From positions 1 to 24,286 of the IMG/VR virus record IMGVR_UViG_3300042197_001004: a stretch of DNA of 24,286 bases, one strand, 5' to 3'. Within the stretch, counting starts at the first letter, position 1. Every line of letters begins with the position of its first letter. The notes beneath the pieces are model-generated. The model worked only from the letters and a program-made list of their open reading frames with translations, did no database searches and had not been told where the DNA came from. Position numbers and translations under genes: made by a program. Source of the stretch: a virus. Below, in pieces: positions 15,753-17,744 of the stretch.

Positions 15753-16005
15753 ATACACATCTGAAGAACTACACGCCAGATTAATTGTCAGTATTGGAAT
15801 CATTCTGGCTATTGTATTTGCTGGCTCAGTATTCGCTTTGCTATGGGCTTTGGTATTTGTGACTCAACCAATGAAGCAGGCTCCAAATGATGCAGCCTTC
15901 ATTGACCTTGTTTCAACTTTGACAGTCTTTTTGACAGGCACCTTGGCTGGTATTGTGTCTGCTAATGGAATAAAAAACAAACAGAAAGAAAAGGAAGATG
16001 AATGA
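15739..16005 (+). CDS. Holin-like membrane protein with two TM helices
   Basis: ATG 15739 has AGGAG at 15728-15732; a TTG at 15736 would add only one residue. The 88-residue protein has a charged start (KRNRYTSEELHARL), a first hydrophobic span (IVSIGIILAIVFAGSVFALL continuing to VFVT) and a second (LVSTLTVFLTGTLAGIVSA), and a polar Lys/Glu end. Two spans with both ends inside is the class II holin layout. Its place next to the endolysin fits. Since a second holin candidate exists at 16471, the two may be holin and antiholin. Confidence 0.62.
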   Translation: MKRNRYTSEELHARLIVSIGIILAIVFAGSVFALLWALVFVTQPMKQAPNDAAFIDLVSTLTVFLTGTLAGIVSANGIKNKQKEKEDE

Positions 16006-16478
16006 AAAAATCACAAAATGGTTGGCCTGCTTCTGAAGATCAGAAAGAAATAGATATAAAGATCTTCAAAGTCAAAGGCACTGACAGAAAAATGAGACTA
16101 CAGAAAGACGCTGGAGTAATCTTGGCTGCCTTTGCTGCAGATTTTCACGCTCAGATAGAACCTATTGATGAGGGAGTGTTTGACGATTGGGCATACGCCT
16201 ATAGGGATGTTAAAGGTAGTGATTCTGATTTATCAAATCACGCATCAGGAACAGCCATAGACCTCAACGCAACCAAGCATCCGCTACATGCTCAGAATAC
16301 TTTTACCAAGCAACAGGCTGTTATAATTAGAGAATTATGTAAGAAGTACGGCATTCGTTGGGGTGGAGACTACGCAAAGCGCAAAGACGAAATGCATTTT
16401 GAAATAGTTGAAACACCTGACGAAGTAAAAGCAAGAATAAAAGCAATGAAGTTAAAAAAGGAGAATAAAGATGGCTAA
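16002..16478 (+). CDS. M15-family peptidase endolysin (VanY/CwlK-like)
   Basis: The 158-residue protein carries the zinc ligands and motif of the M15 peptidases: SNHASGTAIDLNA with H80 and D87, and KDEMHFEI with H132 and an acidic residue at 129. The family cleaves D-Ala-D-Ala or L-Ala-D-Glu bonds in peptidoglycan peptides. The whole product is just the catalytic domain plus a short Lys-rich tail (MKLKKENKDG), with no separate cell-wall binding domain and no signal peptide, so release needs a holin. It overlaps both neighbours and is the main lysis enzyme candidate. Confidence 0.87.
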   Translation: MKKSQNGWPASEDQKEIDIKIFKVKGTDRKMRLQKDAGVILAAFAADFHAQIEPIDEGVFDDWAYAYRDVKGSDSDLSNHASGTAIDLNATKHPLHAQNTFTKQQAVIIRELCKKYGIRWGGDYAKRKDEMHFEIVETPDEVKARIKAMKLKKENKDG

Positions 16479-16686
16479 GGCCAAAATCGTAAAATCCAAT
16501 AAAGAAAAGGCAATTGCTATGGCTCAGTCATGGGCAAGAGCATCTCTCGCATCAGTTGTAGCCCTCTACATGAGCGGAATCACTGACTGGAAGGTATTAG
16601 GCAATGCATTTATTGCAGGCTTGCTTGGACCATTAGCAAAGGCTCTTGATCCAAAAGCAACAGAGTTTGGCAAAGGTAGTAAATAA
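16471..16686 (+). CDS. Holin (small actinophage type)
   Basis: The 71-residue product has a basic N-terminus (AKAKIVKSNKEKAIAMAQSW), one hydrophobic stretch (ASLASVVALYMSG), and a second (LGNAFIAGLLGPLAKAL) ending in DPKATEFGKGSK. This plan (ARS-type amphipathic helix, ITDWK turn, GPLxxALDP) is common in actinophage holins located after the endolysin. AAGGAG at 16458-16463 is seven bases before the ATG. A promoter overlaps its last codons (16667-16695). Its likely role is to open the cell membrane for the M15 endolysin. Confidence 0.75.
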   Translation: MAKAKIVKSNKEKAIAMAQSWARASLASVVALYMSGITDWKVLGNAFIAGLLGPLAKALDPKATEFGKGSK

Positions 16687-16695
16687 GAGTATAAT
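16667..16695 (+). promoter_or_regulatory. Sigma70/A-type promoter P1 (TTGGCA-17-TATAAT)
   Basis: TTGGCA at 16667-16672 and TATAAT at 16690-16695 are separated by 17 bases, and the -10 is a perfect match. It overlaps the end of the holin gene. Transcription should start near 16702, precisely at the first base of an 8-bp stem. Confidence 0.72.
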
Positions 16696-16701
16696 TAGAT
16701 A

Positions 16702-16788
16702 TTAAGATCACAACGCTACACACATCCACAAGGGAATTTTGAGCGATTCAGATCTTAAAGGTGGCCCTGGAGAAATCTGGGGCCATTT
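16702..16788 (+). ncRNA. Candidate small RNA 1 (about 87 nt)
   Basis: The expected start from promoter P1 begins TTAAGATC (16702-16709), which pairs with GATCTTAA (16751-16758). Inside it CGCT (16714-16717) can pair with AGCG (16742-16745). Immediately after comes a ten-pair hairpin with a GAAA tetraloop (16762-16785) followed by TTT. Promoter, closed outer stem and terminator-like hairpin fit within about 90 bases with no ORF. It is a compact RNA gene candidate; a structured leader for the downstream lysin is the alternative, with partial read-through. No known RNA family was recognised. Confidence 0.55.
16762..16788 (+). terminator. GAAA-capped hairpin, terminator-like
   Basis: TGGCCCTGGA (16762-16771) pairs with TCTGGGGCCA (16776-16785), including two G-T wobbles, with loop GAAA. 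Only three T follow (16786-16788), preceded by AAAGG on the other side, so termination may be weak. It would end the lysis operon and small RNA 1. Confidence 0.5.
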
Positions 16789-16917
16789 AAACTTAATATG
16801 GATATAGAGGGACAACCAAGGCCTGAAAGTGTCTTAAAAACAATCCTCGCAAGGATTTGAGGCATTTTGTAGACCACTCATGGGGCTATTTCATGGGGCT
16901 TAAAAAGGAGAAATCTA
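16789..16917 (+). other. Untranslated leader of the transglycosylase gene
   Basis: No ORF fits here. It holds two mutually exclusive small hairpins: AATCC/GGATT (16842-16857) and CCTC/GAGG (16845-16862), which share bases. A 10-bp direct repeat TCATGGGGCT occurs at 16878-16887 and 16891-16900. AAGGAG at 16905-16910 is the ribosome binding site of the next gene. No convincing promoter is seen within this stretch. Confidence 0.5.
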
Positions 16918-17322
16918 ATTATAAGCAAAAATACACTAATCGGAGGACTAATTGTATTAATAGTAGTTTTAATAGTACAATTAACAACTCCACAACCAGC
17001 AATACCAGTAATTTATAAAGACAGGCCACCTCTAATGCAGGTCAATGCAAAAGCGGTAGCCAAAGAATTACTGACCAAAGAACAATATTTATGCTTAACC
17101 AAGTTGATAGGAAAAGAATCAGCCTGGAATCCTAAAGCACAAAATCCTACATCCACAGCAAGTGGAATAGGACAAATGCTTGATTCTACATATAAAGGAT
17201 TGGGCATGAAAAAATCAGATGCAGGTGTCGTGCAATTAATGGCCACACTTGCTTACATTTCAAGAAGGCATGTAAATAGTTGCAATGCCCTTAGACATTT
17301 TCAAGACAAAGGATGGTACTGA
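16918..17322 (+). CDS. Membrane-anchored lytic transglycosylase (SLT-like), non-AUG start
   Basis: The lysozyme-like domain contains CLTKLIGKESAWNPKAQNP (catalytic Glu of the ES motif, residue 67 by this numbering), ASGIGQMLDSTYKGLG and a C-terminal WY, as in SLT-type phage enzymes that cleave the glycan of peptidoglycan. The first in-frame ATG (17035) has no ribosome binding site and would delete a strong membrane anchor, NTLIGGLIVLIVVLIVQL, in the same frame upstream. A good AAGGAG (16905-16910) lies seven bases before ATT 16918 and ten before ATA 16921; no ATG, GTG or TTG exists in frame back to the stop at 16870. I therefore place the start at AUU. A single-base sequence error is the other explanation. 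Confidence 0.65.
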   Translation: MISKNTLIGGLIVLIVVLIVQLTTPQPAIPVIYKDRPPLMQVNAKAVAKELLTKEQYLCLTKLIGKESAWNPKAQNPTSTASGIGQMLDSTYKGLGMKKSDAGVVQLMATLAYISRRHVNSCNALRHFQDKGWY

Positions 17323-17399
17323 TGGAAGAAAATGATCAACTCACTGAGGTTATTATAATTGGCCCTAATGGTGAGGAAATTAAAACATATTTGTTGTAG
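17322..17399 (+). CDS. 25-residue small ORF coupled to the transglycosylase
   Basis: ATG 17322 overlaps the transglycosylase stop (TGATG at 17320-17324). The 25 residues (MEENDQLTEVIIIGPNGEEI, then KTYLL) are acidic with a hydrophobic centre and look protein-like, but there is little to test. The stop at 17397-17399 lies one base before the -35 of the next promoter, so the end of this transcription unit is sharply defined. It may be a real small protein or only a coupling tail. The family is unknown. Confidence 0.38.
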   Translation: MEENDQLTEVIIIGPNGEEIKTYLL

Positions 17400-17400
17400 T

Positions 17401-17430
17401 TTGACAAACTTATATCACCAATGATATACT
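17401..17430 (+). promoter_or_regulatory. Strong promoter P2 (TTGACA-18-TGaTATACT)
   Basis: TTGACA at 17401-17406 is a perfect -35. TATACT at 17425-17430 is preceded by TGA, an extended -10. The spacer is 18 bases. The start is expected near 17437, at the beginning of a perfect hairpin. It drives small RNA candidate 2. Confidence 0.8.
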
Positions 17431-17436
17431 TAAGTT

Positions 17437-17526
17437 ATTCATGTTGCCATGAATATAAAAATGTCGCCTCCGAACGACAGCCTCCAGGTTTTTTATCTCC
17501 CGATTTCTTGCCTGGAGGTTTTTTTT
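17437..17526 (+). ncRNA. Candidate small RNA 2 (about 90 nt) with CCUCC and UCCC loops
   Basis: From the P2 start to a rho-independent terminator is about 90 bases. Hairpin 1 is TATTCATG-TTGC-CATGAATA (17436-17455). Hairpin 2 is TGTCG-CCTCCGAA-CGACA (17462-17479), with CCUCC exposed in the loop. The terminator stem is CCTCCAGG/CCTGGAGG (17481-17518) with a 22-base loop that contains ATC-TCCC-GAT, then T8. Both C-rich loops are complementary to Shine-Dalgarno sequences (GGAGG, GGGA), as in sRNAs such as RsaE/RoxS that block initiation. No significant ORF is present. Promoter and terminator support is strong; the targets are inferred. Confidence 0.72.
17481..17526 (+). terminator. Rho-independent terminator (CCTCCAGG...CCTGGAGG-T8)
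   Basis: Perfect 8-bp stem CCTCCAGG (17481-17488) with CCTGGAGG (17511-17518), loop of 22 bases, then eight T (17519-17526). The left arm CCTCC is repeated at 17467-17471 in the previous loop, so the right arm GGAGG could also pair there. Confidence 0.85.
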
Positions 17527-17533
17527 ATAGAGT

Positions 17534-17562
17534 TTGCACTTTTAAAAAGAATCTGATATACT
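17534..17562 (+). promoter_or_regulatory. Promoter P3 (TTGCAC-17-TGaTATACT)
   Basis: TTGCAC at 17534-17539, 17-base spacer, TGA plus TATACT at 17557-17562. It starts right after the preceding terminator. Start expected near 17569, giving a leader of about 175 bases before ATG 17745. Confidence 0.75.
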
Positions 17563-17568
17563 CTTTTT

Positions 17569-17744
17569 ACTGGAACAATGCGTTTGGAGATAATATCAAG
17601 GGTCGCACCAGCCAATAGACGGAAAGTTTCTTTCTGGAATTGATAATTCTAATCTGTTAAAGGGTTAGGGTTCCAATTCTGGAAAGTCCTTAAAAAGAAA
17701 AACAATATATATTATATATATTATATATTAAAGGGGCGAATGAG
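17569..17744 (+). ncRNA. Structured leader RNA or small RNA 3
   Basis: No ORF of credible quality is seen in this 176-base transcript start. Its core is a 13-pair stem, CTTTCTGGAATTG (17630-17642) with CAATTCTGGAAAG (17674-17686), with two wobbles. Inside it CTAATC (17649-17654) pairs with GGTTAG (17663-17668), loop TGTTAAAG. The CTTTC arm can instead pair with GAAAG 17622-17626 (loop TTT), and TGGAAC 17571-17576 can pair with GTTCCA 17670-17675; both exclude the 13-pair stem. Such alternative pairing is typical of regulatory leaders. It ends at an AT-rich repeat and the ribosome binding site of the next gene. No known riboswitch consensus was seen. Confidence 0.52.
17706..17730 (+). repeat. 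AT-only tandem repeat (TATATATTA)
   Basis: Two complete and one partial copies of the 9-base unit TATATATTA lie just upstream of AAAGGGG and ATG 17745. They would form an easily melted stretch or weak AU hairpin in the leader. Confidence 0.8.

Follow-up and report, generated by a model that had tools for sequence, protein, structure and literature searches.

A candidate trans-acting anti-Shine-Dalgarno small RNA encoded in the lysis gene cluster of environmental phages

Positions 17401-17526 of a viral DNA stretch of 24,286 nucleotides (a virus record of 24.3 kb, hereafter the window) comprise what is, on well-supported grounds, an autonomous phage small RNA (sRNA) gene with a predicted product of about 90 nt. 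We favor, with moderate confidence, the reading of this product as a phage-encoded, trans-acting anti-Shine-Dalgarno (anti-SD) sRNA that would block translation initiation. Such anti-SD loop sRNAs have previously been described in bacterial chromosomes, and the family reported here is conserved in an environmental phage lineage. If the reading is correct, the phages possess a compact RNA route for controlling translation initiation during infection.

Anatomy and orthologs of the sRNA gene

All elements of the gene lie on the plus strand. Its promoter (17401-17430) reads in full TTGACA-18-TGATATACT, with the TTGACA hexamer at 17401-17406 separated by a spacer of 18 from TATACT, and the extended -10 element TGA-TATACT ending at 17430. 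It is followed by a first hairpin (17436-17455; TATTCATG-TTGC-CATGAATA) bearing a conserved GUUGCCAU in or at its loop, a second hairpin (17462-17479; TGTCG-CCTCCGAA-CGACA) displaying the anti-SD loop CCUCCGAA, and an intrinsic terminator (17480-17526; GCCTCCAGG...CCTGGAGG with T8 as its U-tract), inside whose loop a mini-hairpin AUC-UCCC-GAU can be read at 17495-17504. The CCUCC of the second hairpin occupies 17467-17471 and has a predicted unpaired probability of 1.0. The near-consensus promoter, two hairpins and terminator described by the first-pass annotation were each found in place when the sequence was read and indexed.

The region 17436-17530 folds at -31.9 kcal/mol (z = -6.6) and the 91-nt transcript interval 17437-17527 yields z = -5.3, with none of the shuffles equally stable in either case. 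A simple pattern scan returned 11 promoter-like matches in the region against 14.1 expected, i.e. not above chance, and the count of terminator patterns was likewise at chance level; the latter scan overlooked the sRNA terminator because its loop is long. Hence, the case for an sRNA gene rests on comparison and conservation.

Using the endolysin (16002-16475), the transglycosylase (17035-17319) and one downstream protein as baits for related viral contigs, we assembled from related IMG/VR phages an ortholog set of 46 distinct sequences, which form 19 clusters at 80% identity. They occupy a single syntenic place in the lysis gene cluster of these environmental phages, following the transglycosylase gene either directly or with one to two acidic mini-ORFs in between. 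Nearly all possess the TTGACA and extended -10 elements, followed by the terminator and then by a new promoter. The fold z-scores of the clusters range from -4 to -7.6, though the clusters are not fully independent, every member coming from a single phage lineage. A mechanically called ORF (17421-17618) is, by inspection, not retained in the relatives, and the proposal of an autonomous phage sRNA gene lacking a conserved ORF is upheld across this set. Known phage records contained no DNA relative of the sRNA interval, and motif scans of viral contigs recovered the element together with its promoter solely in known members of the clade, the other matches being devoid of the promoter.

The orthologs vary in length (83-125 nt), number of hairpins and stem sequence; the promoter and an unpaired RCCUCC remain constant, and the loop of the terminator is usually rich in pyrimidines (UCCC or CUCUC). 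Three architectural classes can be recognized. Class I has one TTCTATG...CATAGAA hairpin enclosing the motif plus the terminator; class II has a GTTGA...TCAAC hairpin enclosing the motif, usually a second hairpin, and the terminator; and class III, to which the window belongs along with others making up 14 of the 46 orthologs, has the GUUGCCAU hairpin, then the motif (carried either by a separate hairpin or by a linker), then the terminator. On the less favorable side, RNAalifold recovered few pairs from the class I and class III alignments because the stems align poorly, the exception being the class III terminator, in which nine of ten pairs show double changes.

The place of the terminator between two promoters also bears on a possible role in cis. 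The first-pass annotation had proposed that the GGAGG of the terminator arm could pair with either of two CCUCC segments, and such a leader or attenuator, with GGAGG alternatively pairing with CCUCC, might control read-through into the next gene. GGAGG is indeed found in the terminator arm of the window and at the 3' end of nine other clusters, but these 10 of 19 clusters are the only ones with it, so that the switch does not hold as a general feature, and the sequences downstream are unrelated among relatives. Moreover, in the window a promoter (17533-17562; TTTGCA-18-TATACT) directly follows the terminator and sets the sRNA apart from the downstream unit, which makes a cis-acting leader very improbable.

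Class III further invites a reading of the opposite strand, as its reverse complement shows an SD, a short spacer and then AUGGCAAC, so that a small gene might be read there, with GGAGGTG...ATGGCAAC supplying its SD and initiation codon. However, the reverse frames end within a few codons (Met-Ala-Thr-stop in the window), the ATG is missing from classes I and II, and the conserved promoter and terminator are those of the plus strand. A minus-strand gene is hence the least credible of the explanations considered here.

The exposed RCCUCC stretch and the 16S rRNA tail

An accessible RCCUCC, taken as one whose predicted probability of being unpaired is 0.6 or higher, is present in 18 of the 19 clusters, as against 0.7 expected from dinucleotide shuffles of the same sequences. 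The one exception, L105, has GCUCCC in place of CCUCC, two members (L162 and L163) have two CCUCC hairpins or loops each, and in L174, L025, L084 and L100 the motif lies in a single-stranded linker. Stems are exchanged between orthologs while the RCCUCC motif persists. The first-pass annotation had named unconserved loops on random stems as the pattern that would speak against an sRNA; the opposite is seen, with the CCUCC and the UCCC-type terminator loop kept while the stems change. This swapping of stems around a retained loop also offers a search rule for RNAs that sequence-based families miss.

The 3' tail of 16S rRNA reads GGAUCACCUCCUUUCU. The loop consensus over the 18 clusters is GATCACCTCCT, or in its longer form GATCACCTCCTGAA, of which the first 11 letters are identical to this tail; the consensus of the exposed stretches, GAUCACCUCCU, equals it. 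The window's own copy is GCCUCC, and its match to the 16S tail is shorter than that of the consensus. Computed duplexes of the loops with a full SD (AAGGAGGUGAUCA) have energies of -16 to -17.5 kcal/mol. The correspondence of the loop consensus to the 16S tail, and the retention of GUUGCCAU in hairpin 1 of class III, were not part of the earlier annotation.

Two secondary motifs accompany the exposed stretch. In the class I terminator loop UCCC is invariant across 20 aligned members, and the terminator loops of the other classes are CUCUC-like. In class III, GTTGCCA is invariant in 13 aligned members although the arms differ, and part of it is predicted to be weakly paired in some of them. GUUGCCAU precedes CCUCC on the 5' side, as antiparallel pairing to an SD...AUGGC arrangement would require, and in class III it may thus contact the AUGGC of start codons.

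Given that the consensus reaches beyond CCUCC to GAUCACCUCCU, the sRNA might alternatively be a global mimic of the 16S tail, one that titrates strong SDs rather than particular mRNAs, or that titrates a binder of the 16S 3' end (for instance a factor for initiation or ribosome maturation, or an anti-SD-cutting toxin), and thereby shifts translation late in infection. Anti-SD-removing toxins are known from actinobacteria (PMC12274833). Nevertheless, complementarity to the SD would by itself select the same sequence, the additional GUUGCCAU and UCCC motifs hint at something beyond a copied tail, and loop energy does not clearly separate phage start regions from others; we accordingly regard this alternative as unlikely. 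A broader proposal, which we hold to be speculative and rather unlikely, is of a phage mimic of the 16S 3' tail that would reprogram initiation in the whole infected cell, or serve as a decoy for factors or toxins that act on the anti-SD; in part of the family it would make a bipartite contact with the SD and the start codon (CACCUCC plus GUUGCCAU).

The C-rich stretch could also serve as a sponge for a G-rich sRNA of the host or the phage, with precedents in the phage sponges AgvB and AsxR and in the CrfA/SisA-D pair of Caulobacter (PMC12559287). No partner RNA is known, however, and pairing with the SD explains the 11-nt match to the 16S tail more simply, which leaves the sponge improbable.

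Proposed action, targets and comparison with known RNAs

Under the favored reading, a trans-acting anti-SD sRNA, the gene would be transcribed from its own promoter to its own terminator and the product would act in trans, presenting an unpaired copy of the 16S tail (GAUCACCUCCU) between or within variable hairpins. This exposed stretch is predicted to base-pair with the SD sequences of target mRNAs, with possible assistance from the UCCC/CUCUC terminator loop and, in class III (14/46), from contacts between GUUGCCAU and AUGGC-type starts that lie shortly after the SD. By competing with the ribosome the sRNA would repress translation initiation, and it probably blocks the translation of chosen messages during infection, which may be those of the host, the phage or both. 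Because the sRNA is small and offers an obvious seed and obvious mutants, this proposal lends itself to direct testing.

Among phage targets, a search for an SD with AUGGC or for GGAGGUG gave scattered matches, none of them conserved. A single recurrent GGAGGUG 5'UTR (GAATTTCTGGAGGTGTATGCATA) has CGAGGTG in some relatives and shows no covariation with the sRNA loop; it constitutes a conserved 5'UTR before differing zinc-ribbon or HNH-like ORFs in relatives (e.g. L171:5030, L172:5051 and L201:10156). Phage start regions mostly carry AAGGAG (61 versus 7 with GGAGGT). We considered selective sparing of phage mRNAs and rejected it: the binding energies on phage start regions are similar for the loops and the 16S tail, and as they are not clearly different we make no claim that phage mRNAs are spared. 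As to the host, relatives of the transglycosylase are almost all found in actinobacteriophages and those of the endolysin are mixed; no WhiB was present in the 23 records examined, and a host genome search gave no usable match.

In actinobacteria, 6C RNA (RF01066) is a small RNA with C-rich loops and a proposed action at SD sites, and in Firmicutes RsaE/RoxS uses UCCC-type motifs to pair with SDs. The loops of 6C are runs of C, in contrast to the CACCUCC of the phage sRNA, and its model gave no match in the window's record and none at gathering in the window or 10 relatives. The likeness to RsaE/RoxS drawn by the first-pass annotation survives as a functional analogy, seen in the UCCC of class I terminator loops; the architecture and main motif differ, and no Rfam match to it was obtained at gathering in the window or 10 relatives. 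More generally, no Rfam family matched, either at gathering (window plus 10 relatives) or at E<=10, and the alpha-r15 (RF02345) covariance model scored 13.5-17.1 bits against a gathering threshold of 40. A term search of a 2025 review of phage sRNAs found no mention of anti-SD.

The alpha-r14 RNAs, whose three hairpins have divergent stems yet display the same anti-SD motif in unpaired parts, provide a published precedent (PMC10746234). Like the phage sRNA, these alphaproteobacterial alpha-r14/cuckoo RNAs (NfeR1) keep an unpaired, ultraconserved anti-SD motif on strongly differing stems (PMC10746234), but their motif is CCUCCUCCC in each of the three hairpins, whereas the phage sRNA has GAUCACCUCCU, usually once. 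They are moreover encoded on bacterial chromosomes, the phage sRNA has neither sequence homology nor an Rfam match to alpha-r14, and its loops read CACCUCC or GCCUCC, which places it outside this group. The alpha-r8 SisA-D RNAs of Caulobacter have an anti-SD core that is single-stranded and flanked by a hairpin and the terminator (PMC12559287), like the linker type of L174 and L025, and differ in their core (UUUCCUCCCU), association with Hfq and chromosomal location. Also phage-encoded is the c4 RNA of P1/P7, in which complementary loop stretches block a ribosome binding site (PMC12197685); c4 specifically targets the ant mRNA, whereas the sRNA described here is preceded by a promoter of its own and displays an anti-SD stretch of generic type. 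On present sequence comparisons the phage sRNA thus resembles alpha-r14/cuckoo, SisA-D and 6C functionally, without homology. With its own promoter and terminator, no ORF, and a conserved unpaired anti-SD on variable stems, it shows, at the sequence level, features expected of trans-encoded anti-SD sRNAs.

Neighboring features of the lysis cluster

In the SLT transglycosylase gene of the window no in-frame ATG, GTG or TTG is present upstream of the domain (16907-17034). A conserved AUU at 16918, 7-8 nt after GGAG, opens a signal-anchor segment (ISKNTLIGGLIVLIVVLIVQL). This AUU is kept in about 60 related loci, including nearly all the sRNA-bearing relatives and a second group, and the equivalent position is AUC in L115 and L116 and AUG in L117-L130. 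The relatives and the spacing point to AUU as the start codon of the transglycosylase. An acidic mini-ORF (17322-17399; MEENDQLTEVIIIGPNGEEIKTYLL) precedes the sRNA promoter, and similar acidic mini-ORFs, sometimes two, are found at the same place in most relatives and are missing in some.

Two other stretches resemble non-coding RNAs. The first (16667-16795; z = -6.4) is about 85-92% identical in more than 10 relatives. In the window it is preceded by TTGGCA-17-TATAAT, and its 3' end bears a GGCCC...GGGCC hairpin. The second (17533-17744) has its own promoter and a fold z of only -2.3. An 8-nt match between the sRNA terminator loop and this second stretch (GGAGATAA) was discarded, as inspection showed that it is not kept in relatives. 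In the relatives the slot of the second stretch is taken either by sequences of three or more unrelated types or by a coding gene.
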